DNA from: a virus
IMG/VR virus record: IMGVR_UViG_3300021371_000063
Coordinates: 1-33,078 of that record
DNA: 33,078 nt
Strand: one strand, 5' to 3'
How positions within the stretch are numbered: position 1 is the stretch's first letter; each line of letters opens with the position of its first letter. The position numbers and the translations under genes are program-made. Shown here one piece after another: positions 2,282-18,948 of this stretch. The notes beneath the pieces were generated by a model. It made no database searches. It saw only the letters and a program-made list of their open reading frames with translations, and was not told where the DNA came from.

Positions 2282-2352
2282 AAAAACTTTTTCTCAGCTC
2301 TTTACTCTTTATATACTTACTATAAAGAGTAAATATCTATAGAAAAGTTTTT
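2282..2352. repeat. Nested palindromic element, copy 1
   Basis: The inner core is TTTACTCTTTATA (2301-2313), a 7-base centre TACTTAC (2314-2320) and the exact complement TATAAAGAGTAAA (2321-2333): 13-bp perfect arms. Outer A/T-rich arms AAAAACTTTTTCT (2282-2294) and AGAAAAGTTTTTT (2340-2352) are also nearly complementary, giving a palindrome within a palindrome. The 33-bp core recurs as its exact reverse complement at 21212-21244. This copy overlaps the 3' end of the gene at 2337-2609 and lies upstream of the NUMOD4-like gene. Its function is unknown; operator, terminator or recombination site are all possible. Confidence 0.85.
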
Positions 2353-2609
2353 TTTCTGGTTTTTCGAGCAGCAGTCTTTCGCCTCTGTGTGAGTATACGG
2401 CCCCTATTTTCGACGTAATACGCTCTATTGTAAGCACTTAACTTCTTTTTGCGGGATTCTTCCTGTTCCGGTTCCAAGACCTCGTTTATTTCTTTTCTTC
2501 TTCTAAAACGCTCTTTTGATTCCCTGTAGTATTTGTTTTGATACGCGAGCCTCTTGTCTCTGTTTGCTAAATAATACTCACGTTTCTTCTTAGGGTCGTA
2601 TTTTTGCAT
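2337..2609 (-). CDS. Small basic protein with YYxxNR-type repeats
   Basis: About 90 residues from the ATG at 2609. An upstream in-frame start at 2687 is less likely because a promoter-like sequence lies between them. The protein is very basic, lysine/arginine/tyrosine rich and helical, with repeated units such as KREYYLANRDKRLAYQNKYY and later NRAYYVENRGRIL. Such YYxxN(R/K) helical repeats are common in small phage proteins and in DNA-binding extensions of phage HNH endonucleases, which agrees with the NUMOD4-like neighbour. The C-terminus (KTARKTRKKTFL) is encoded across an arm of the palindromic element. Nucleic-acid binding is inferred from composition; no catalytic domain is seen. Confidence 0.6.
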   Translation of the reverse strand: MQKYDPKKKREYYLANRDKRLAYQNKYYRESKERFRRRKEINEVLEPEQEESRKKKLSAYNRAYYVENRGRILTQRRKTAARKTRKKTFL

Positions 2610-2642: not shown

Positions 2643-2728
2643 TTTTTTTCTAAATACAGATATATACATGTGCCAGCTCGCGCACAAAAGCGCGCCCCCA
2701 CCCGTGGCGTGTCCTGTATCACGAACCC

Positions 2729-2755
2729 TGAACCATGAACAAAGTTCATGGATCA
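2729..2755. repeat. Perfect hairpin CCATGAAC/GTTCATGG
   Basis: CCATGAAC (2733-2740) and GTTCATGG (2744-2751) are exact complements around a 3-base AAA loop. After one A-A mismatch the pairing continues with TGA/TCA, giving an 11-of-12-bp stem over 2729-2755. No T-run follows on the plus strand, so a simple terminator is unlikely. Confidence 0.75.
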
Positions 2756-2767
2756 GGAAAAATGTTT

Positions 2768-2846
2768 CGGGATTCGGGGTTCACCCTTCGGGTGAAGGCT
2801 CTTAAGGAGAGATTCCGTTGGAATGTCGAATGAACCCCGAATCCCG
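2768..2846. other. Cloverleaf-like structured element (candidate ncRNA or DNA structure)
   Basis: CGGGATTCGGGGTTCA (2768-2783) is the exact reverse complement of TGAACCCCGAATCCCG (2831-2846), a 16-bp closing stem. The 47 bases it encloses hold three further hairpins: TTCACCC/GGGTGAA (2780-2786 with 2790-2796), CTCT/AGAG (2799-2802 with 2808-2811) and ATTCC/GGAAT (2812-2816 with 2820-2824). The first shares TTCA with the closing stem, so the fold could switch between a 16-bp stem and a 12-bp stem plus a 7-bp arm. It is not a tRNA: no anticodon arm, T-loop or CCA is present. Whether it acts as RNA or DNA is unknown. Confidence 0.6.
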
Positions 2847-2864
2847 TATCCCTATGCACGAATC

Positions 2865-2892
2865 CGTGTGCATGTATACGTGTGCATGTATA
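2865..2892. repeat. Tandem 14-bp direct repeat (iteron-like)
   Basis: CGTGTGCATGTATA occurs twice head to tail (2865-2878 and 2879-2892). A partial inverted copy, TATACATGTG, is found at about 2673-2682, and CCTATGCACG (2851-2860) is a partial inverted version. Such iterons commonly bind initiators or repressors. Confidence 0.65.
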
Positions 2893-2907
2893 GGCGCAGC
2901 GCGCACA

Positions 2908-2922
2908 GTCATCGAAGATGAC
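2908..2922. repeat. Short perfect hairpin GTCATC/GATGAC
   Basis: Exact 6-bp arms with a GAA loop lie about 30 bases upstream of the first plus-strand start codon. A leader hairpin in the mRNA is possible. Confidence 0.5.
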
Positions 2923-2952
2923 GAGAGGATGAGTCGATGGCCTTAGAGGGTG

Positions 2953-3150
2953 ATGACCAAAAACGAATTGACCGAACTACTTAAACCTCATTTGCAAACC
3001 CAAGAATCTATCTCGACGATCAAAGATCTTGATGAGATGGAGATAGACTCCTTCGTGAAGGAGATGAGTTGGATGCTACCACAATGGTGGGAAACGCCGG
3101 ATGAGGTCGCTGACCTCTTTAGCGATTACTTCGCATGTGAGATCGCCTAA
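2953..3150 (+). CDS. Small acidic hypothetical protein
   Basis: 65 residues from the ATG at 2953. A GTG three bases earlier could also serve. AGAGGG at 2945-2950 is an unusually good Shine-Dalgarno-like sequence for this window but sits very close to the ATG. The protein is acidic and helical (TELLKPHLQTQ, DEMEIDSFVKEMSWMLPQWW) with a tryptophan-rich centre; no known domain was recognised. It is the first gene of the plus-strand accessory block and is followed by a hairpin-containing spacer. The role is unknown; small, highly charged, promoter-proximal proteins of phages are often host-takeover or anti-defence factors, which is only a possibility here. Confidence 0.6.
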   Translation: MTKNELTELLKPHLQTQESISTIKDLDEMEIDSFVKEMSWMLPQWWETPDEVADLFSDYFACEIA

Positions 3151-3169: not shown

Positions 3170-3226
3170 CTCCCTTTAAAAGGGAGTGGCTGGACGGCTC
3201 GATAGCCTTAACAATTGAAACTATGA
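3170..3226 (+). promoter_or_regulatory. Hairpin-plus-leader cassette, copy A
   Basis: CTCCCTTT (3170-3177) pairs with AAAGGGAG (3179-3186); in practice this is a 6-bp stem with a 5-base loop. It is followed by a leader starting AGCCTTAACAATTGAAAC (3204-3221) that runs into the next start codon. The same hairpin and an identical 23-base leader through the ATG recur at 3485-3540. There is no T-run, so it is more likely an mRNA processing, stability or translation-control element than a terminator. Confidence 0.7.
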
Positions 3227-3480: not shown

Positions 3481-3540
3481 GCCTCTCCCTTTCAAAGGGA
3501 GGGGCTAACCACTCAACAGCCTTAACAATTGAAACTATGA
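3481..3540 (+). promoter_or_regulatory. Hairpin-plus-leader cassette, copy B
   Basis: GCCTCTCCCTTT (3481-3492) pairs with AAAGGGAGGGGC (3494-3505) with one G-U wobble. The same leader as copy A then runs over 3518-3540 into the ATG at 3537. The two copies are identical over 23 bases through the start codon and differ in the outer stem, which argues for selection on the leader and on base-pairing. Confidence 0.7.
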
Positions 3541-4421
3541 TTACTACCGTAAAACATAAAACCCTGATAGCCTTCTCTCAAGCTGCCTTGGCAGCAACCA
3601 AAGAAGGAAAGACTGTGGCTATGCCACAAGAAATAAAGACTGCCAGTAAGCATTGGCAGAATTGCTTTGCAAACTTCATCCTGTGGCAGCATTCCCTTGT
3701 CACTAGTGACGAAGCCGGAATCGCCATTGGTGTGAAAGGCAAAGCCTTCGCTGCGAATGGTAACAAGAAACTACCGTTTCTAAGCTGGTCATCCATGCCA
3801 CTCATGGACTGCGGCGGAGCCGGAGAATGTAAGAACTTCTGCTATAGCCTGAAAGGCTGGAGGAATGTTCACCCTTTCTTCCGCCAACTTCGTAACAGTC
3901 TCTTACAGAGATTCCGTTTTGACCTTGTCCAAGCAGAGCTTGACCGTGTCTTACAGACAAAGCAGTTCAAGTCACAATCGAAGATTGACTTCCGACTCTT
4001 TGTTGACGGTGACTTCGACTCTGTCGAAACGGTAGACAAGTGGATGACCTTACTTCGTAACAAGCCGATCTTGAAAGCTTACGGCTACAGCAAAAGCTGG
4101 GAAGAGCTTGCCAGTTTCACTGGAGAGTGGCCTACAAACTACCGTTTGAATCTCTCAAATGGCAGTCGGTTCAATGAGAACAGCGGGATTGCAAGACGTG
4201 TTCTAGCCTTGCCGATCACGAGAGGTTGGTTCAAAGCAATCGGCTCCAAAGGAGGGGTCGAATACAATACGACAGAATACAGACAGAAGGCGCGAGAATA
4301 CGCCAAAGAGGCGGGACTAAAGCGTGTCTTCATATGTTCTGGTCTCTGCGGTGAATGCACTCCACAAGGCCACTTCTGTGGCTCCGATAACAAAGCTGAC
4401 GTAGTTATCCTGACTCACTAA
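3537..4421 (+). CDS. GP88-like cysteine-motif phage protein
   Basis: 294 residues. It resembles the phage Gene product 88 (GP88) family, whose members carry a Cys-rich segment followed by a conserved 'R..N', a 'GDF' and a 'ygYsKs' motif. Here C92, C98 and C102 (CGGAGECKNFCYS) are followed by RNSLL, then LFVDGDFDS, KAYGYSKSW and NYRLNLSNGSRFN. A second Cys cluster near the C-terminus (C267, C271, C274, C281 in ICSGLCGECTPQGHFC) could bind zinc or an Fe-S cluster. The family is of unknown function; the Cys arrangement recalls radical-SAM-like proteins, but the classical CxxxCxxC is absent. Preceded by leader cassette copy B and followed by a heptamer repeat. Confidence 0.6.
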   Translation: MITTVKHKTLIAFSQAALAATKEGKTVAMPQEIKTASKHWQNCFANFILWQHSLVTSDEAGIAIGVKGKAFAANGNKKLPFLSWSSMPLMDCGGAGECKNFCYSLKGWRNVHPFFRQLRNSLLQRFRFDLVQAELDRVLQTKQFKSQSKIDFRLFVDGDFDSVETVDKWMTLLRNKPILKAYGYSKSWEELASFTGEWPTNYRLNLSNGSRFNENSGIARRVLALPITRGWFKAIGSKGGVEYNTTEYRQKAREYAKEAGLKRVFICSGLCGECTPQGHFCGSDNKADVVILTH

Positions 4422-4449
4422 CCCCGAACCCCGAACCCCGAACCCCGAA
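4422..4449. repeat. Tandem heptamer (CCCCGAA)x4
   Basis: Four exact copies of CCCCGAA start directly after the GP88-like stop codon and end 11 bases before the next ATG. Related phrases (ACCCCGAACCA, GAATCCCGAACCC, CGAACCCTGAACC) occur at about 2722, 2833, 4659, 6834 and 7352, all in the 2.7-7.4 kb block. The arms of the cloverleaf element use the same unit. Confidence 0.85.
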
Positions 4450-4460
4450 CCACTAATCAG

Positions 4461-7645: not shown

Positions 7646-8017
7646 ATGAAAAATAAAACACAAATCTGTTCCATCGCCCCTTATCTTCTCCACCACCAGT
7701 GGGTCTTTGACTCTGACAAACACGGCCTTTACGAAGAGGCTTTCGTTTGCGGTATGACTGAGATCATTGACGCCGTCCTCGAAGATAATGATATTGTGCC
7801 AATCTCCGTTGCATCTGGATTCAGGCTCACATTCTCCTCGAAAGCGTGGCCAAACTCCACTCATTCCCTCAAGTGGATAGGTGAAGAAGATGGTGGAAAT
7901 GTATACGAGATCAGACTAAAAGAAGGCTACACAATGCAAGGCTGGTTATGCCCTGCATTGCTTTGCTACTTTGACAAAGCCCCAAAAGAGATCCACGTCG
8001 GGGTCGAGAGCTTCTAG
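7646..8017 (+). CDS. DUF6717-like protein
   Basis: 123 residues matching a small family I know as DUF6717, with the pattern SIAPYLLHHQWVFDS, GLYEEAFVCG, ASGFRLTFSSKAWP and MQGWLCPALLCYFDKAPKEI; the conserved GWLCPAL..YF..AP end is especially clear. The family occurs in phages and bacteria and has no known function. The gene lies after a strong terminator and ends in the same CTAG palindrome as the giant gene on the opposite strand (8014-8017), with no terminator between them. It is the last gene of the plus-strand block. Confidence 0.65.
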   Translation: MKNKTQICSIAPYLLHHQWVFDSDKHGLYEEAFVCGMTEIIDAVLEDNDIVPISVASGFRLTFSSKAWPNSTHSLKWIGEEDGGNVYEIRLKEGYTMQGWLCPALLCYFDKAPKEIHVGVESF

Positions 8018-11000
8018 TCTTCCAGCATGAGGTAGCGTGGCTGCTTGTCTCTCTCCCCATAAAGGAGAGAGGCACGGTCAGCATGACCTCGTTGCACCAG
8101 ACCGTCCACGAATCTCTTATTGAGATCTGGTCGGTCCATAGCTCCGAAGAAGATCAATCGAGCTTTGTCTTTTCCAATACCGTATTGCTTCATCACACTA
8201 GCTTGAGTCCCGATATTGACGCCTAGTTTTTGGAATCCTTTAGTGACCCGATATAACTCATTGTTAAGAGCCATGCGACCCTTGAGATCATTCTCATAGA
8301 CTTCGCGGACATCATCATCGGTGATGGGCTTGTCACTGTAGAGTTTAAACTTCTGATCAGTAACATCCTTGAGACGTGATTGATGGTCCCGTAAGAAGCG
8401 TCTGAACTGTTGCTCTGCATCGACTGAGTGTAGCTTAACCGGAAGCATACCATCCAGTAATTCTCCATATGGAGAGTCCGAGAACTTATCGTAGTCTGCT
8501 AGGTATGCGTTGAAGGCTTCCTTTCCGTCTTTTAGCAGTCGAGGTTCATAAGCACCTTCAAGTAGATACCTCATCATCTTTGTGGATATAGTGAGGAAAC
8601 CATCGGCTTCTGGTATGAAAATCCGGCGACCGGTTGTAGCGTCTCGATTATCTCTAAGATCAAGCAGTGATCCCGCCAAGATCTGATCGTCGAGATACTG
8701 GTCAAGGAATATACCCTTCAAAAAACTGAAAGCAGCGTCCCCGACGTTCCCCTTTACAAGATCTTCAAAACCACGCATGACTGGATCGGCTAACAAGCTG
8801 AACGGGTTAAGGTAAGTCAGGTCGATGGAAGTTAAATCATCAGAATCTCCAAAGTAGAAGAAGGTATGCCCTTTAAGGTATGCAGGCATTGACTTACGAA
8901 GAGCTTCGTCCTCATCGTCCCCAATCCCCAGCAACCACGCAAGAGCGTAGGCGGATGTCGAGGATACCCCGAACAACATGGCATTCATAGATTTGAATCT
9001 TTTCTTTCCTCTAGCCTGTATGGCTGGGTTGTTGCTGGCTTTCTCTTCCTTAGCTAAAGTATACGTATTGTAAACGATCCTTGGGACTTCAGCTTTGAAT
9101 CGAAGGAAAGGGGCTAACAGTAAGCCAAAGTTACCTTTCGTCAGTTCTTTGACGATTGGAGGAGCCTGACTCAAAGACTGTGCAGTCATCTTAATTTTCT
9201 TTGCAGCCATCCGCTTTAAAGCGTAGTCATCCATCTTCCCGATATCAGAGTTAGGATATTGCTTCTTAGCTTTTCTGAGAACGTCCAGTTCATGTTCAAA
9301 GTAGGCGATCTTGAAAGAACCGTCGATAGATGCGGATAAACCAGCCAACTTTTCCTCTGTGCCTTTGACGAATTTCTTGATGTCTGCACTAGCAGGGACA
9401 CGTTCAAAAAATTTATTGAGTTTCGACAACTTCGCTTCTGGAGAGATCTCACCAGATAACAACTCACGGACCATACCAGCTCTCAGTTCATCCCCAAACA
9501 CACCTAAACCAACAAGCTCAGTGAGGTAAGCATCCATTTTATTGGGGTCTTTCCACTGCTCAAGTGAGAACGAAAATGAGTCTGTTATAACGTTCCAACT
9601 CCCGCTCATCCCTTGTGCAGGACCAAAGAAGAGGGCGTTACCTAAAATGTTTCTTAGGTAGAAACCTACGCTACCGAGAGTTTTTAATAGCATCGACTTA
9701 CCTGTCAGATTCTGTAACGTCGCCGCGATTGAACCTACGGTTCGTTGAGCCGTGCTACTCGACAACGAACCGCCGACAGGGCTAACCACATCCTTCAGAT
9801 CCTCGAACAATTCTTTCTTCACATATAAATTATGGAGCGGGTCATTTCGATTAGCACTAGGTTTAAGTTCTGTGTAAAGCTCTGGGTTCTTTCTAGCTTC
9901 GTTAGGCTCAACCAAGAAACCCTGCTTCTTACCTACCTTTGCTAGGTTGCTGCGGAAGACCTGCTCCGCCGCTAAGTTCGATACAGTAGAGAACGTCCTG
10001 ACAATCAAGTCAGTGCCAGACTCGGCACCATACTCTCCGAGAAGATCGCGGAGGGGTTTTTGTAAATCCTTTCTTTTTGTTAGGTTCTTAACTACTTTCG
10101 AGTAGCGGCTACTCACTGCGGAGTCACCAGAGATCACCCCTTCGTATCTAGAGATAAATGTTTCGAGAACATTCTGGGCATAGGTTCTCCCATTACCAGC
10201 CTGCTTGTTTGCGTCACGGAGGGCTTTGTCTGCGGCTTTATCAGCCTCAGAAGCAGACTCTCCTCTTTGTAAAGCAGCTTCGCGTGTTTGTTTCTTGAGA
10301 TTATCCTCAAAGAAATCCATTGCGGCTAGGCGGATCTTGTTATATTTTGCATCCTCCCTGACCTTCTTAGCGAAGGTAGGGTCACTAAAAATCCTATACG
10401 CTCTAGTGATGTAGAACCCACCCGTCTGATCAATACGGATCTTCAGTTCTTTGGATATACCTGCATCAGAAAGTTTATTCTGGATAGGTTGGATTAACTC
10501 CTTACGCATACTCACGATTAACCTAGCAAGCTTAGGTGATATTCTGGACAGAGTTTGGACCGCTTTGTTTTTAGTGTCTTCGATTGCAGAGATAGCATTC
10601 TGTTCTGCGTCAGATATGTTTTTGTTACGGAGTTGTTTCGACGTAGATATTTGAGTTTTCTTCTCAGCTTTTGTTAGTTTGTCATTTTTTTCGATTAACT
10701 CTTTCCTAGCTTTATGCGCTGCTTCTTCTTTAGCGTAGAAGGTATCACTGACAAGGTTACCGTCGTAGTAGCCTTGCGCTTCTGCGATGGTGTTAAGGAA
10801 ATCTTTAGTCAGCGTGATGTTCTCATCCTTTACAACAGCTTTAAACTTGGATTGAAAAGCTTTGACGGCGGAGATAGATGCCCGTTTGAACTCATCTCGC
10901 TGTTCGATCAGATCGCGAACCGGAGATCCGACATCACCTTGCAATATTCTAGCTAACCACGTATCTGGCTTCTTATATGTCTGGAATTCAGCCATCGGCA

Positions 11001-14000
11001 TTTCCAGAAGTTTGACCACATTTGAGAAGTCGAGGTTGGATATTGGAGTTGTAGGCACCCCTCTGGAAGCGAACAATTTGAAATCAATACCCATGTCTGA
11101 TGCACGATCATTGAAGTCGTCACGAAGTGCCTCGATATTTACATCAGGTTGTTCTTTAGCTTGTTTATACTCAGCAACTAAAGCCCTGACTTCTTTTTGC
11201 CTCAGAAGTACGGGGTGGATGGTTTGTTTTGCGTAGGCTTGAAGTGAGTCACTACCATCGGTGAGATCGAAAGTAACATTGATCGACTCACCAATATCTC
11301 TCCAAGCATTCGCCGCCTTATTATTCTGTGTCGGTCTTCCTGCTTTTAGAGTCTTAACAAGGTCAATGTCTCCATTACTATCTTTGATTGCGATGCTCTC
11401 TAAAAAGTCCGCGCTCTGAGATAACTGATTTGCGATATTGGATGCTTCCTCACGAAGCTTTTTAAGGATTACTTGTTTTTTGTTTTCTGGTAAATCCGCG
11501 AAAAACTTCCTTTTATTGAAAATAATTTCATCAACTAGGTCATCCGCAAGCTCCGTAGTATATTCAGGATCACGATATTTAGAAATTATTTTCTGAATTA
11601 GTTCTGGGTTATCTGGTCTGAAACCTAGTTTAGGCCAAGTAGAATACCCATTCATCGCGAACGATTGATTGAGTTTTGATTGTTTGAGGAACTCTTTCTT
11701 ATCTGTAACAGATTCTTCCTCACTCAGAGTTCGCGTTATATTATTGAAACTACTTACAATCTTTCTTTTTAAAACGCTGCCTTTATTTGATCCCGCAGCT
11801 TCAGTGATAACCTTCTCGATACCAGCCTGATCACTAACCATGATTAAGGCAGTCATCAAATCAGACGAGAATCCATTAGAAGCCTCTGTTTTGTTCACCA
11901 TATACCCAACTCTAATTTCTTTTGATGGGCGGATCTCAGTATCTTGTAACTCAGCTATGGTCTCTCCAGAAGGATCGACAAGCTGGATGTTGATATTAAA
12001 TACACCAGAATAATCGTCTTCATAAACATCAACCTCAGCCTCATAGTTATCGTTGCTCAGAGATTTAATTGCGCTTACAAGCGAGCCTAAGTCAATATCT
12101 GGGCTGACAACATCGAGATCGACTGGCGTAAACTGCGAGACGCCGCTAAGTTCTTCAGCTAACTCTTCTTGGAAGAGAGACTCTATCTCGCCATCGTCTA
12201 GGACAAACTCAGAGGCATCATTCATCCTCAAGCGTGCTCTCCTCATGAGAGTATTTGGGTAGTCAACAGGAATAGAAGACGCATACAACCTCACTGCGCT
12301 CTCCGCTTGCTCTTGTAGGACAGTAGCTTCTTCGATTGGGTCGTAATTCGTAAGTCGAGCGAACTCCAATACAGAAGCATCAGGGTCGTCTACGTCTAAA
12401 CTCTGGAGATCTGTTGATCTGTTGAAACCTATGTTCAAGAGAGTTGCTTCTCGATCTACCTTCATAAGAAGACTATCTAAAGCACTAGAACCCCTATTCA
12501 TCTGCTTTACAGCAGCAAGCTTGGAGAAGTATGCGCGGATGTATCGCGTGATAATAGCTAACAAGCTAGGTTTGCTAGACCAGAAGTCGTAATCCTCTTC
12601 GGTTGTTGTTCCAGTCCGAACCTTTTCAAGGTGCATACGGAGCTTCTCTTCAGCTAAACGGCTCGCTTCTATGGTTATTCGTCTAACTACTTCGGGGTCT
12701 GTATCCTCCGTTATTTGGGTTTGAATTAGATCAATAGACGCATCCCGATCCGCTTCATTACGGTAATAAGCATTTGCTACCTCTACGAAGTCTGTCTCAT
12801 CAAACGTAGAGATATACTCTTGGATCTCTTTTTTGGTAAGCGCGTTGTAAGACGCAACGTGCGCCAGCTCGTGATTGAGAAGAGTCTCTACGTATACTTT
12901 TGAACCGAGCAAGTCAAAGTTTTCTAGATCTTGCATCAAGATTCTAGGATTAATCTGAACTGTGTTTCTAATTGCAGAAGCAGGTGAGTCCATTTCCATG
13001 TCAATAGAAACCTCAACACCCAACGGAAGGCGGTTCTTGAGATGTAGCATCACAGCCTCCATCTTCCTTTGATCTGTTGTAGTTAGATCGCCAGAATCTT
13101 GGATAGTATCAATGACGTTATCAATATTCTCGTCAATCTGAACTTGTTCAGGATCGGGCTGAGACTCAATCTGCTTTGGAGTCAATGTTTCACGAGTTTG
13201 ATCCTCTTGAACTCCAACAACCTCTGTGACATCTTCAATATCTTGAGCGGCAGCTTCCGCCGACTCCATAGCCGCTTGTGAAGGCGGCACAGCAGTTGCC
13301 CTGAAGGGGGTCTTACTCAGAGAAATAACATCCGAAAGTGCTTCCGTGTAAATGTTCTTCTCGCGACCAGTGATCTTACGGAACATCGAGATAAGGGACT
13401 CCATGATCCTCTTGAAGAATCCTCGCTGTCCAGCAGGTGGTTCTAGGCTCTTGATATGGGCCTGAAGTTTAGGTGACAACAAAAACTTCGCCAAGAACTC
13501 ATCGAAATTCTCGAACGCATCCTCCAAGACAGGAGTAGATATCTTGCTCTTGCGGTATTCCTTCTCTGCGAGAGTGAACAAGCTTTGAAGTCTCTGGCGG
13601 GCAGCTCTTTGATTCTCGTTGATAGATTCTTCAGGCTTGCTCGCTACATCAGAAAGAAAAGCGTGGACATACTCTTCCAGAAGAACATTTTCCAGACCCA
13701 AACCATTACCCGTTCTCAAGTTCACGTATACAACGTGCCTACCGTCTTTGAGAAGAGAATGTTGTCCAGCTACTGAATATAGACTTTCACCCATCGAGAA
13801 CTCTACGCTGCGGATAAATGCCTCGTCTTCCAGAAGCAGGTCAGCGACTAATTTATGAGATTTACGGTCACTCGTCTTGGCGATCTTTTTGAGAGCGGAG
13901 ACAATCGATTCAGGGTCTCCGTCTACTAGTCCAAGCCTTTCAACATCAACTTTGTTTTGTTGCTCAAGAGCAGCTCTGACTTCTTCAGAGACGTGTGCGC

Positions 14001-17000
14001 GAGAGAACCTCCGTCTTACAGCTTGGTCCATTGACTTGATGAAGTTAGTTGCATCTCTACGACTAAAATCACGGCCAAGCGAGGTACCCATGAGTCTTTG
14101 AATTTCAGTGATTGCTTCTGAGTTATTCAAGGGATTACCTTCATATCGATAAGTGAGGAAGCTAAGGTAAAGGGCGTCTTTGATATTTACACCAGCGTCA
14201 AGTGTCTCGCTCTCAAGTCTACTTACAAATTGCAGAACTTCTGGACGGGAAGTGTGGCTCCCCGTTCCGAGATAGGTTCCGAGATGAGCCATAAGATCAG
14301 TAGTATCCATCTCCGAAACAATCCCACGTTGGCGTGGAGTAGCGTTCGGCTGGATAGCCTCTATGTAAAGATCGACAATAGACGACCTCAAGCTAGGTGA
14401 AGCATCAATCTGTTCCACCATTCCTCTGATAGAACTCTTGAGAGTTTTGTAGAATGTGTTCTTGTCGATTGTGTCAGAAGCATCAACAGAACCTAAACTT
14501 CCAGAATAAGCGACATCTTGCTCGCCCTCACCATAGATATCTTGTTGAGGGTCTGGGATTTGTTCCAGATCAAAGTCAGCATTGTTAACTTGGATGTCCT
14601 TCCCTTTCTGAACTCCTCTAAGCTTCTCTTTCGCAATGTAGTTCTTTACCTTAGCTTTGAAGATAGAGTCGAAAGTAGGCATTGAACCCGCCTTGAAGGC
14701 GTCGTTGCCAAAGACTTGAGAATCAATAAACGCAATAATAGAATCAGTGTGTGTATTACCCTTACCAGCAATAAACGGTTGGACCGCTTGAGCGAGTTCA
14801 GCTTCAGAATTAATATTCACTCTGGAAAGAAGAGCTTTCTTAAATACTCCTTTACTTTTCTTAGTGTTCTTAACTCTTACTTCTCCAGCAACCTTTTCAA
14901 CAAAATTAGCCAGTGATCCTTCAGCTTGACCTTTCAATTCATAGAGATGAAGAAGTCTTACATATTCCAGATAAGCTTCGTTGAAAGCAATGTCTGCATT
15001 GGTGTCATCGAGAAGATCGTATCCTTGCTGCAAAGAAGCACCTCGCGATCCTTGTAGGAGAGCTTTACGGAGTCCTTGATCTTCTTTAGACTTATCATAG
15101 AAGTCATCTAATTGTTGTTTTACATCCCCGAAGGTAACACTCCGGTCAGAGACATCTTGAGTGAAGCCCCTCTCGTTAATTTCACGAGTCCCGTAGGGCA
15201 TAACAACGTCATCCTTAGTAGCTTCAATAAACGGAATCCGAGTCAGTTTCTCAATAGCGGCTGCATCGAACTCCAAACTTTTAATTGGGGTAACAGGTTC
15301 AACTGCTGTCTCAACTCCAATTCCAGTGTCTGAAGGCTTCAGGACATCAATAACATAACCACCACGAACTTTGATCGAAGGGTTGATATCAAACACATTC
15401 ACCGAATCGGGAACAGGGATACGGATTTCGTGAGCAAGCATCTCCGCCATAGTGACGGGATCGTTATTGAAAATACCGTTGCCACGATTATCAAGGAAAC
15501 CTTTGACTTTACCTTTTGAAACTTTGCTTGTTGAAGGGTCGAAGCGGGTAATCGCTCGCATTCCGGTAAATTTACTAGCGTAGTATTCTGACTTGATATG
15601 TGGATACTTACTGAAGATCTGCTTCGCAAGAAACTCTGACTTGTCTGCAAGCTTCTTTGTCGTGAAAGGAACACCGTAAGTTTTATTAGAGTTGAAACGA
15701 ACAGGGAAACCTGTCTCAGCTAGATCAAGGACTGCCTCTACGGCGTCTATCTCTTCGACAGTGAACTCATCACCAGACTTAAAGATGTTTCTATCTGGCT
15801 GGTCAATAAACTGGACTTTTAGAGAACTAATCTCTTCAACTTCATCTGGTTCTACAACATCTTCAGAATCGATAAAAATGTCCCCTGTTGTTTTCTCCGC
15901 GTTCTGTATAGCTTTCTTATCTTTAGCGTTCGGGAAGTTTTCTAGTTTTTCTGGTGAGTTAAGAAAAAGGACTTCATTAACTTTACGGCGAAGAACTTTA
16001 TCTGGAGTTTGTTGAATCGTAGAGATAATTTCTTCTGTGTCCTCCTGCTCTTTTTGATCAGCTTTAACCGCATCCTCCTCCGCTTTCTGCTGAGAGGCTT
16101 CGTCTAGACGGTCAAGCGATGCTACAACAGAATCGCGGATTTCAATAGCTACCTTTTGTTCTGGAGTTACTTCGGCTTCGGGGTCCACTGCATCTGCAAT
16201 AGAAATAATTTCTGATATAGACTTGCTTTGCAGATCTTCCGGCAAGGTGGCCTCAAAATCTTCAGATACCTTAGTAGTAATCTGTTCAATCTCTTCTGGA
16301 GCTATCGCATCAAGACGTTGTCCGACACTCAAAGTAACTGCTTCCGGCTGCACTTCTTCACCTAAAAGTGGGGCGGATTCATCCCTCACTCTAGCCGCAA
16401 GTTTATATTGAGTTTCAAGAACAGCAGCAGAAATAGGACTACCACTATCGCGTAAGTTTTTAGAAGCTGATTCAAATATGTTCCTTCTGAAATCTACTTC
16501 TTGTTGTTGGCGCATCGAAGCATCCAACTTAAATCTTGAACCGATTTTTTGCACGGCGGGTGCGCCTGCTCCTAATACACCTCCGATAACCATCGCATCG
16601 AAAGTCTGTTCTAGACGATCCATCATTGGGGTATCTTGGTCTAAAGCGGCGTCCTCAACGTAAGAATTAATGAACTGGTCGAGACCTTCTTCCATTGCTT
16701 CATCACCGAAGTTTCGGCCAATAGATGATAGTAGGCCGAACTTACCCCCTTTGGCTTGAGACTTTTTAATGGTTGATTTAAGGACGGACTTGACTTTATC
16801 TGTCGTGAAAGTTTCAGCAAAATCGTCTATGCTATTTAAGACAGTTTTAAACTCTTTAAAAGACATACCACGTAAGAAGGCATCGTCGATACCTCCTCGA
16901 CCAAGAAGGCTGAATCCTGATGTGATAACGCCAGTAATTGTCCCGCTAAGAAGACCTGCTCCTAATGCTCTATCGTGAATCTGTTCCTTAGAAAGATCAG

Positions 17001-18948
17001 AAGACTGCCTCAAGGCGTTTGTGACTGTGCCATATGTTGACGCTCCTGATCGTGTCGCAGCCGGAATAAAGATAGCCGTCTGGACTCCTAGTTTGCGAGC
17101 AAGTGAATTATTATAAGCCTTCAGAGCGTCGTTTGCTAGCTTACCGTCAATTTGTTTAAGAGAAGCCTCAATGACTTCCGATAAGGGTTTAGAAGAACCA
17201 CCTCTACCAATAATTCTAGGAGCCGATTTAATCACATTTGAAGTGATATTTTTAGTAAGAGCTTTAATTCCAGCAACAGATCCTGCCCTTGCCGTCACAT
17301 AAGCTGCACCACCAACGCCCCCTATAGGAGCGGTTCCAACAGCCAGTAATCCTGTCGCTAAAAGATCTGTAGTCATAGGAGCGATTGCTTCTAAGATCTC
17401 CGCCGTATAACCATATTCCTGATTAAAGAGTTTAGCGACTTCTCTCCGGTCGGAAGCATCCTGAGAAGCTTGTGCTAAAACATTAGCTGCGCTTTCATTA
17501 CCAAACGCAGCAGGGACTGCCGCCAAAAGCGTCGCAGAACCTTCAACAACCGAAGATAATATACCTTTTGTCCTCTCCCAATAAGTGCTGTAATTATCTT
17601 TATCTTTTAAGAAATCATTTAAGATCTCGTGGTTCTGTTTTCCATTGGCGCGTCCTTCCATTAGAGCTTCACGCCATTCATCGTCCACACCACTCCGACT
17701 AAGAACTCGGTCATATTGAGCGAAGTTACTATTTAACAAAGAAGTTCTCTGAAGTCTTAGCTGCTCGAAAATCTCTGGGTCAAGATCTGTACGTGCTTTC
17801 GCCATCGCTTCAAAAGCGTTCTCATTTACAAGAGCCGCAGAGTGAACAACTGGAATACCGCTGGAGGTCATTCTAATATTTTTACCAGCTTCTTCATCTT
17901 CATATAAATCAAAGAGGCTAGTGCTAGAAGCCTCCTCCAGAACGAGATAGTCATAAGCATTCTTAATATCCTCATAAGAAAACTCTTCACCCTCGGGGAC
18001 AAAAGAATAAGAATCTAGCTTATCTTTCAACTCATGAACAACACGTTGGTTGCTAACCGCCTGCAATTCTTCCATCTGCTCATCACGCCTCTCCTTATCT
18101 TCAGAGAAGAGCCCAAAAAAAGCATCGCTGATGTCGTCCAATTTACGGGCAGTCCAGTCCATAACACCTTCATCTTCTCCTTCAGATAAGTTCTGAGCGT
18201 GTGCTTTAATCTGATCAGAGAAAACAGAATCTTCTTTAGCAAGACTAGATAAAACATTACGGGCTTCATTGAAGCGATTATATTTAAATCTCTGCATCTT
18301 CGTGCCTGCGACAACTTCGAGTTGCCCTTGAGCGAGATAAGCATCTGCTAGGGAAACACCTCCCGCTTTAGACGCTTCAAGAGCCTCACTAAGACTCATC
18401 TTAGTTGCGGCGTCGCCCGCAAGAATCACGCGGTTTCCTTCTGCGTCGGTAGTTGCAATGAATGGTAGCTCACCGGAGTGTAGCATTTTTCTCTTCGCAG
18501 TCTCATATTGACGATCTAAAGCGTTATTAGCCGCAGCCTCCATTTGCTGTAGTTGCTCATCCCCTTCAGGTAAGGTGTCACGGGCCGCTTTATACTCGGT
18601 CAGTATTTCCCAATCTCTACTGTTAGTATCGATATGGCTTTGAGCTAAATTAAGTCTGGTATCGAATGAGGCTGTTGGGGCTGAAGAAAGATTTTTAAAA
18701 CCCTCATAGTCTCCTTGTTCTAGATGGCCATCTTTGACCAGAGAACCAAACAGTCCTTGCTGGATATCAACCTCCATTTTTTGTGATACAAGGCCAGCGT
18801 CAATATACGATTTACGTAGATAATTAGCGTAATCTAGTTTCCCCTTAATAGGATCTACGATCTGCTTGTCAGCCGACCATTGTGAAAATTTAAGATACTC
18901 TGGCTTTGCAGAGCTTAGGGCTTGCAGCGTTTTTTCGTAGTCAGTCAT
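8014..18948 (-). CDS. Giant multidomain polyvalent / internal virion protein (3644 residues)
   Basis: One intact frame from the ATG at 18948. Regions, approximate: 1-460 helical and charged; 470-800 several Gly/Ala-rich apolar stretches (for example LLATGLLAVGTAPIGGVGG near 525-545) that could insert in membrane; 820-1060 acidic; 1420-1570 with a faint sigma-factor-like layout; 1690-1860 a metallopeptidase-like domain with EEYVH at 1758-1762 in place of HExxH and a downstream NFDEFLAKFLLSP; 1960-2130 a second with intact HELAH (H2026, E2027, H2030); 2300-2440 GNAT-like, ending NGYSTWPKLGF; from 2840 (GGFYITRAYRIFSDP) to the end an LPD38-type C-terminal region with apolar segments near 3090-3110 and 3325-3345. 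Such polyvalent proteins are packaged and injected with phage DNA. Position beside structural genes supports a virion role. Confidence 0.75.
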   Translation of the reverse strand: MTDYEKTLQALSSAKPEYLKFSQWSADKQIVDPIKGKLDYANYLRKSYIDAGLVSQKMEVDIQQGLFGSLVKDGHLEQGDYEGFKNLSSAPTASFDTRLNLAQSHIDTNSRDWEILTEYKAARDTLPEGDEQLQQMEAAANNALDRQYETAKRKMLHSGELPFIATTDAEGNRVILAGDAATKMSLSEALEASKAGGVSLADAYLAQGQLEVVAGTKMQRFKYNRFNEARNVLSSLAKEDSVFSDQIKAHAQNLSEGEDEGVMDWTARKLDDISDAFFGLFSEDKERRDEQMEELQAVSNQRVVHELKDKLDSYSFVPEGEEFSYEDIKNAYDYLVLEEASSTSLFDLYEDEEAGKNIRMTSSGIPVVHSAALVNENAFEAMAKARTDLDPEIFEQLRLQRTSLLNSNFAQYDRVLSRSGVDDEWREALMEGRANGKQNHEILNDFLKDKDNYSTYWERTKGILSSVVEGSATLLAAVPAAFGNESAANVLAQASQDASDRREVAKLFNQEYGYTAEILEAIAPMTTDLLATGLLAVGTAPIGGVGGAAYVTARAGSVAGIKALTKNITSNVIKSAPRIIGRGGSSKPLSEVIEASLKQIDGKLANDALKAYNNSLARKLGVQTAIFIPAATRSGASTYGTVTNALRQSSDLSKEQIHDRALGAGLLSGTITGVITSGFSLLGRGGIDDAFLRGMSFKEFKTVLNSIDDFAETFTTDKVKSVLKSTIKKSQAKGGKFGLLSSIGRNFGDEAMEEGLDQFINSYVEDAALDQDTPMMDRLEQTFDAMVIGGVLGAGAPAVQKIGSRFKLDASMRQQQEVDFRRNIFESASKNLRDSGSPISAAVLETQYKLAARVRDESAPLLGEEVQPEAVTLSVGQRLDAIAPEEIEQITTKVSEDFEATLPEDLQSKSISEIISIADAVDPEAEVTPEQKVAIEIRDSVVASLDRLDEASQQKAEEDAVKADQKEQEDTEEIISTIQQTPDKVLRRKVNEVLFLNSPEKLENFPNAKDKKAIQNAEKTTGDIFIDSEDVVEPDEVEEISSLKVQFIDQPDRNIFKSGDEFTVEEIDAVEAVLDLAETGFPVRFNSNKTYGVPFTTKKLADKSEFLAKQIFSKYPHIKSEYYASKFTGMRAITRFDPSTSKVSKGKVKGFLDNRGNGIFNNDPVTMAEMLAHEIRIPVPDSVNVFDINPSIKVRGGYVIDVLKPSDTGIGVETAVEPVTPIKSLEFDAAAIEKLTRIPFIEATKDDVVMPYGTREINERGFTQDVSDRSVTFGDVKQQLDDFYDKSKEDQGLRKALLQGSRGASLQQGYDLLDDTNADIAFNEAYLEYVRLLHLYELKGQAEGSLANFVEKVAGEVRVKNTKKSKGVFKKALLSRVNINSEAELAQAVQPFIAGKGNTHTDSIIAFIDSQVFGNDAFKAGSMPTFDSIFKAKVKNYIAKEKLRGVQKGKDIQVNNADFDLEQIPDPQQDIYGEGEQDVAYSGSLGSVDASDTIDKNTFYKTLKSSIRGMVEQIDASPSLRSSIVDLYIEAIQPNATPRQRGIVSEMDTTDLMAHLGTYLGTGSHTSRPEVLQFVSRLESETLDAGVNIKDALYLSFLTYRYEGNPLNNSEAITEIQRLMGTSLGRDFSRRDATNFIKSMDQAVRRRFSRAHVSEEVRAALEQQNKVDVERLGLVDGDPESIVSALKKIAKTSDRKSHKLVADLLLEDEAFIRSVEFSMGESLYSVAGQHSLLKDGRHVVYVNLRTGNGLGLENVLLEEYVHAFLSDVASKPEESINENQRAARQRLQSLFTLAEKEYRKSKISTPVLEDAFENFDEFLAKFLLSPKLQAHIKSLEPPAGQRGFFKRIMESLISMFRKITGREKNIYTEALSDVISLSKTPFRATAVPPSQAAMESAEAAAQDIEDVTEVVGVQEDQTRETLTPKQIESQPDPEQVQIDENIDNVIDTIQDSGDLTTTDQRKMEAVMLHLKNRLPLGVEVSIDMEMDSPASAIRNTVQINPRILMQDLENFDLLGSKVYVETLLNHELAHVASYNALTKKEIQEYISTFDETDFVEVANAYYRNEADRDASIDLIQTQITEDTDPEVVRRITIEASRLAEEKLRMHLEKVRTGTTTEEDYDFWSSKPSLLAIITRYIRAYFSKLAAVKQMNRGSSALDSLLMKVDREATLLNIGFNRSTDLQSLDVDDPDASVLEFARLTNYDPIEEATVLQEQAESAVRLYASSIPVDYPNTLMRRARLRMNDASEFVLDDGEIESLFQEELAEELSGVSQFTPVDLDVVSPDIDLGSLVSAIKSLSNDNYEAEVDVYEDDYSGVFNINIQLVDPSGETIAELQDTEIRPSKEIRVGYMVNKTEASNGFSSDLMTALIMVSDQAGIEKVITEAAGSNKGSVLKRKIVSSFNNITRTLSEEESVTDKKEFLKQSKLNQSFAMNGYSTWPKLGFRPDNPELIQKIISKYRDPEYTTELADDLVDEIIFNKRKFFADLPENKKQVILKKLREEASNIANQLSQSADFLESIAIKDSNGDIDLVKTLKAGRPTQNNKAANAWRDIGESINVTFDLTDGSDSLQAYAKQTIHPVLLRQKEVRALVAEYKQAKEQPDVNIEALRDDFNDRASDMGIDFKLFASRGVPTTPISNLDFSNVVKLLEMPMAEFQTYKKPDTWLARILQGDVGSPVRDLIEQRDEFKRASISAVKAFQSKFKAVVKDENITLTKDFLNTIAEAQGYYDGNLVSDTFYAKEEAAHKARKELIEKNDKLTKAEKKTQISTSKQLRNKNISDAEQNAISAIEDTKNKAVQTLSRISPKLARLIVSMRKELIQPIQNKLSDAGISKELKIRIDQTGGFYITRAYRIFSDPTFAKKVREDAKYNKIRLAAMDFFEDNLKKQTREAALQRGESASEADKAADKALRDANKQAGNGRTYAQNVLETFISRYEGVISGDSAVSSRYSKVVKNLTKRKDLQKPLRDLLGEYGAESGTDLIVRTFSTVSNLAAEQVFRSNLAKVGKKQGFLVEPNEARKNPELYTELKPSANRNDPLHNLYVKKELFEDLKDVVSPVGGSLSSSTAQRTVGSIAATLQNLTGKSMLLKTLGSVGFYLRNILGNALFFGPAQGMSGSWNVITDSFSFSLEQWKDPNKMDAYLTELVGLGVFGDELRAGMVRELLSGEISPEAKLSKLNKFFERVPASADIKKFVKGTEEKLAGLSASIDGSFKIAYFEHELDVLRKAKKQYPNSDIGKMDDYALKRMAAKKIKMTAQSLSQAPPIVKELTKGNFGLLLAPFLRFKAEVPRIVYNTYTLAKEEKASNNPAIQARGKKRFKSMNAMLFGVSSTSAYALAWLLGIGDDEDEALRKSMPAYLKGHTFFYFGDSDDLTSIDLTYLNPFSLLADPVMRGFEDLVKGNVGDAAFSFLKGIFLDQYLDDQILAGSLLDLRDNRDATTGRRIFIPEADGFLTISTKMMRYLLEGAYEPRLLKDGKEAFNAYLADYDKFSDSPYGELLDGMLPVKLHSVDAEQQFRRFLRDHQSRLKDVTDQKFKLYSDKPITDDDVREVYENDLKGRMALNNELYRVTKGFQKLGVNIGTQASVMKQYGIGKDKARLIFFGAMDRPDLNKRFVDGLVQRGHADRASLLYGERDKQPRYLMLED

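Follow-up and report, generated by a model that had tools for sequence, protein, structure and literature searches.

A cloverleaf-like inverted repeat in the divergent spacer of an uncultivated phage and its probable origin in degenerate heptamer repeats

The divergent spacer and its 73-bp element

The window (the whole stretch of DNA analysed here, 33,078 bases) is a virus contig that encodes a family-A DNA polymerase, a DUF5906 primase-like protein, a DUF2800/PD-(D/E)XK nuclease, a helicase and a terminase. Among isolated phages no relative was found by DNA or with the 604-aa gene (positions 2-1816), the HTH protein or the terminase, and the polymerase showed only distant family-A similarity (best about 28%). 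Relatives were recovered from IMG/VR at 75 loci through the 604-aa gene and at 72 through the polymerase, many of them on contigs of 55-65 kb. Of three related contigs assigned to bacterial genome bins, two belong to Verrucomicrobia (Opitutae, Verrucomicrobiales) and one to Acidimicrobiaceae; such bins may hold stray phage contigs, so these are no more than suggested hosts. A single ORF of 3644 aa occupies 8014-18948 on the minus strand; neither Pfam nor PHROG gave a match for it, and the PDB gave no credible relative. An N4-type virion RNA polymerase working with hairpin promoters was considered and rejected on these grounds, PDB offering no RNA polymerase match to this protein.

The features of the divergent region, together with a repeat of the same type between two genes farther right, are listed below.

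2337-2608, minus strand: small leftward ORF, start codon at 2606-2608, its ATG about 30 nt from the 73-bp element
2638-2710, strand not given: 73-bp element, GTCAAWTTTTTTC - TATATA - AAAAA - (C)CCGTGGCGT, from the conservation profile of 62 copies
2711-2738, plus strand: first forward heptamer run (..CACGAAC CCTGAAC CATGAAC), the 5' arm of stem-loop 1, from sequence, lag-7/14 periodicity and pairing with the next reverse run
2768-2783, plus strand: heptamer run in reverse orientation (CGGG ATTCGGG GTTCA) that supplies the 5' arm of the closing stem
2784-2830, plus strand: interior of the stem, 47 nt, three small hairpins when folded as single-stranded DNA or as minus-strand RNA
2831-2846, plus strand: heptamer run in forward orientation (TGAACCC CGAATCC CG) that supplies the 3' arm of the closing stem
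2855-2892, plus strand: 14-nt (2 x 7) tandem repeats belonging to the heptamer spacer, from tandem-repeat finding
2907-2923, plus strand: leader hairpin, 7-bp, with the stem GTCATC-GAA-GATGAC at 2908-2922, about 30 nt before the ATG at 2953
2953-3150, plus strand: first rightward ORF, 65 aa from its ATG
4420-4451, plus strand: perfect (AACCCCG)x4.6 tandem separating two rightward genes, of the heptamer type seen in the stem arms

The original prediction had placed a cloverleaf-like element in a non-coding region between divergent genes, where a control element would be expected, and a candidate for such an element is indeed present at 2638-2710. It is made up of four boxes separated by variable DNA and was found in 62 non-redundant copies, 72-75 bp in length, from uncultivated, mostly marine phages. 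It occurs once in the window and never in shuffles. In a 75-column alignment the box centres fall at about 9.5, 28.5, 51.5 and 72, that is, at a spacing of 19-23 bp or roughly two helical turns. A folded RNA within the element was ruled out (mean z -0.2 and -0.5). Most relatives have a leftward ORF of about 75-105 aa that begins 20-30 nt from the element. The obvious guess would be that the element is a candidate promoter/operator that serves the leftward gene and perhaps both directions; a scan of the region for the sigma-70 consensus found no site.

To the left of the small leftward gene, positions 2282-2352 hold an imperfect, A/T-rich inverted repeat of 32 nt (81%), perhaps a terminator; similar DNA is found in contigs L021, L025, L107 and L166. 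Six contigs (L178, L124, L120, L100, L127 and L205) end 2, 33, 117, 221, 281 and 299 nt to the right of the 73-bp element, respectively. A cos site or genome end was considered here and rejected: ends within 300 nt are frequent, but their scatter suits assembly breaks in a variable repeat better than a single cut at a fixed place. The contig ends are thus probably assembly breaks rather than genome ends.

Sequence and fold of the inverted repeat

The perfect 16-bp inverted repeat was confirmed, with all 16 positions of its arms (2768-2783 and 2831-2846) paired around a loop of 47 nt. The 250 nt that follow the 73-bp element contain no longer inverted repeat. In 300 dinucleotide shuffles of those 250 nt the longest inverted repeat averaged 7.0 bp and reached 12 at most, none being 16 or longer. 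The minimum free energy (MFE) of the region folded as RNA corresponds to z = -3.9 on the plus strand and -4.4 on the minus strand. When 2711-2900 is folded as single-stranded DNA, z falls to -8.0 and the structure comprises the closing stem, the three inner hairpins and more hairpins on both sides; the stem of stem-loop 1 (CCTGAACCATGAAC-AAA-GTTCATGGATCAGG, 2727-2757) appears in this fold. In the MFE structure of the plus-strand RNA, the closing stem is present and the interior is rearranged into two arms. The three-hairpin interior, shown by single-stranded DNA and by minus-strand RNA, therefore depends on strand and molecule, and the predicted three hairpins in 47 bases hold for single-stranded DNA of the plus strand and for minus-strand RNA but not for the plus-strand RNA MFE. 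The overlap that had been noticed is there as well: the closing stem shares its last four bases with the first hairpin (TTCACCC TTC GGGTGAA, from 2780). The two-state switch read into this overlap is not supported, pairs in the relative G003 being broken and uncompensated.

Negative scans bore out the view that the element is neither a tRNA nor a terminator: ARAGORN detected no tRNA or tmRNA, and no terminator-like site (a GC stem followed by a T-run) was found. A search of Rfam at gathering and relaxed thresholds gave no credible family match for the region. Used as an exact pattern against IMG/VR, the 16-mer arm returned five matches in other contexts, one of which (L006) is itself a GGGTTC-type heptamer run.

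The arms and their flanks read TTTCGGG ATTCGGG GTTCA and TGAACCC CGAATCC CGTATCC; each repeats a 7-nt unit, whose orientation in one is opposite to that in the other. Pooled over the 300 nt to the right of the 73-bp element in 51 non-redundant phages, sequence identity at lags 7, 14, 21 and 28 was 0.355, 0.341, 0.320 and 0.305, respectively, against about 0.25 at other lags; to the left of the element, no peak of the lag-7 type was seen in the 51 phages. The spacer of the window alone gave 0.33 at lag 7 and 0.40 at lag 14, against 0.24. Within the spacers of related phages the unit occurs in both orientations, and the spacer sequences are mostly unalignable between phages. The other inverted and direct repeats originally described around the stem are present as well, but they are largely one phenomenon, a bidirectional heptamer array, and not separate signals.

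The heptamer arrays of the window, in the spacers 2711-2892 and 4420-4451, are intergenic. On the minus strand the latter carries four runs of GGGG separated by 3-nt loops and might form a G-quadruplex. The idea that the heptamers are a host trait found no support: the pattern GAAYCMBGAAYCMBGAAYC occurred in none of the three MAGs with related phage contigs, whose bacteria are only suggested as hosts. To the right of the 73-bp element, contigs L100 and L099 have long pentamer arrays, (TCTGG)n and (ACTGG)n/(GCTGG)n, instead of heptamers, so the spacer can fill with other short tandem units too. In L112, the first 220 nt to the right of the element form consecutive long near-perfect hairpins (z -11.5), their sequence unrelated to that of the window.

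Conservation of the stem and of the leader hairpins

The region is common to three relatives, G001, G002 and G003, and both arms can be aligned in one only, G003, the closest relative, whose neighbouring protein is 97% identical. Compensatory base changes in relatives, which the original prediction had named as its own test, were not found: the arms of G003 carry four substitutions that break four of the 16 pairs, none of them compensatory, and G001 retains most of the 5' arm and lacks the 3' arm. G002 differs, and the loops and arms of the fold differ in all relatives. The RNAalifold consensus of the window, G001 and G003 does not include the closing stem. Judged by these alignments, the cloverleaf is not a conserved element.

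The longest inverted repeat averaged 9.3 bp inside one spacer and 8.8 bp between spacers of different phages (51 spacers). Inverted matches of at least 16 nt occurred in 5 of the 1275 between-phage spacer pairs (0.4%), showing that the heptamer vocabulary by itself gives such stems occasionally. In length, the 16-bp stem of the window nevertheless exceeds every other within-spacer inverted repeat of the 51 phages and falls in the top 0.4% of this between-phage heptamer null; its length lies at the extreme of the distribution and counts against taking it for a by-product of the repeats.

The leader hairpin that precedes the first rightward gene changes its stem and keeps its pairing: ATCCCTC-GAA-GAGGGAT in G002 and CTCCCTT-TAA-AAGGGAG in G001 and G003. 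In an alignment of six such hairpins, made up of first-gene leaders and similar leaders of other rightward genes, two-sided changes affected 5 of the 7 pairs, pairing held in 97.6% of the cells and the covariation score was reached by none of 500 shuffles; as the rows are few and were picked by eye as hairpins, this covariation is support, not proof. The leader hairpin would thus illustrate what kept structure looks like in these phages, and on present alignments the cloverleaf does not resemble it.

Gene leaders also show a repeated cassette, in which a CTCCCTTTnAAAGGGAG hairpin is followed by TGGC.., often by CCTTTAACAACTGA, and then by an ATG 26-42 nt past the hairpin. Several copies are found per genome, ahead of different genes: in the window at 3170-3186 and 3485-3501, in L003 at 4679, 5257, 6954 and 7730, and in L002 at 2799, 3402, 4378 and 5974.

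Explanations for the fold and comparison with known repeats

In these phages the stretch that separates the 73-bp element from the first rightward gene has a 7-nt period, with units in both orientations. We think it probable that the cloverleaf is a by-product of this hypervariable spacer, or 5' leader, of degenerate 7-nt repeats. This reading rests on the composition of the arms as heptamer runs, on the lag-7 peaks and on the loss of the stem in the nearest relatives, and further on the consensus fold that leaves the stem out, on the similar lengths of inverted repeats within and between phages and on the leader hairpin, which serves as a positive control. The heptamer runs would arise by replication slippage, giving tandem copies, and by template switching, giving inverted ones, and they would turn over quickly. 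Should rightward transcription begin within or close to the 73-bp element, the untranslated leader of the first rightward gene would include the stem, as a hairpin that is strong but not specific. What selection appears to keep, to judge from the comparisons above, is the 73-bp element together with the leader hairpin at 2907-2923.

The main rival supposes selection for structure of a generic kind: the leader of the rightward operon would need strong hairpins of any sequence, and the cloverleaf would be this phage's version. Suggested roles are that the hairpins may stabilise the mRNA 5' end, be processed by RNase or insulate the operon from the divergent promoter. The spacers do fold better than controls taken to the left of the 73-bp element, with a mean z of -1.63 on the plus strand and -1.94 on the minus strand against -0.33, and strong folding (z < -2 relative to shuffles) was seen in 37-41% of spacers against 10% of controls. 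Long perfect hairpins of unrelated sequence recur in L112, L152, L119 and L105, in strings in the first two, and several rightward genes have a strong hairpin with compensated changes 26-42 nt before their ATG. However, about 60% of the spacers are without a strong excess, and the excess is equally large on the minus strand, which fits DNA repeats rather than one RNA. Inverted repeats within a phage are, moreover, on average barely longer than those between phages. On balance we regard this explanation as unlikely.

A more elaborate proposal joins the repeats to the fixed element. The spacer could be a sequence-independent structure generator, new inverted heptamer arrays being made (for example, by template switching) beside a fixed recognition element (about 73 bp); strong hairpins would then persist with no conserved sequence and would serve replication initiation or the processing of the rightward-operon leader. 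We hold this to be quite improbable.

Somewhat more doubtful still is a replication origin or a protein-bound cruciform, with the 73-bp element and its A/T tracts as the recognition site and the heptamers and dyads as iterons or an extruded cruciform. The element is single-copy, nearly fixed in length and placed in the divergent region, its boxes are 19-23 bp apart, and the heptamer arrays adjoin it, all of which would suit an origin. Yet the heptamers, unlike iterons, vary in sequence, number and spacing between phages, the same unit is also found between rightward genes, and the cloverleaf is not conserved. No initiator-like gene was recognised beside the element, and cumulative GC skew turns near 23 kb and not at the spacer, though the skew follows gene orientation. 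The sequence-specific RNA regulator or two-state switch that was first proposed has the strong local fold and the overlap of the first hairpin with the end of the closing stem in its favour and is nonetheless extremely improbable, given the broken, uncompensated pairs of the closest relative, the absence of an Rfam match, the divergence of loops and arms in all relatives and a plus-strand RNA MFE structure that lacks the three-hairpin interior.

Returning to the by-product reading, the nearest described phenomenon is that of the heptameric, G-rich simple sequence repeats found in intergenic DNA of Xanthomonas, (GGGAATC)n and (GGGANTN)n, and Nostoc, (GGGGA(C/T)T)n (PMC4692102). Their units are heterogeneous, their length and sequence vary much between close relatives, and some copies are convergent or inverted and able to form stem-loops or cruciforms (PMC4692102). 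The phage repeats share with them a 7-nt unit with G-runs and A/T-C spacers (GGGATTC and GGGGTTC here), an intergenic location, inverted pairs and fast variation. They differ in residing in uncultured phages rather than in host chromosomes; here they occupy the divergent control spacer and the gaps between some of the rightward genes. The phage unit is also more degenerate (about CNNG-NNN by eye), with both orientations mixed, and the cloverleaf has at most three neighbouring G-runs, the quadruplex-type four or more being present only at 4420-4451.

Heterocystous cyanobacteria, too, have tandem 7-nt repeats in intergenic DNA, the STRR heptanucleotide repeats; likened by description and not by sequence, these agree with the phage repeats in period and intergenic place and differ in the organisms that carry them. 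Phage 5' leaders can have hairpins before early genes, RNase III-processed or stabilising, as in T7. By analogy, the hairpins found here just upstream of operon start codons might be leaders of this type, the cloverleaf being set apart by its lack of conservation. The literature searched contained no description of heptamer repeats in phages or Verrucomicrobia.

The case suggests that an eye-catching, RNA-like fold need not reflect selection on an RNA: a short degenerate repeat present in opposite orientations is enough to give perfect stems. Heptamer-repeat spacers, known from the chromosomes of bacteria such as Xanthomonas and Nostoc, are here found in the divergent control spacer of phages, where they would turn over quickly. 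What merits attention in this uncultivated phage group is the control element of near-fixed length, with its 62 copies, and the repeated leader hairpins with compensatory change.
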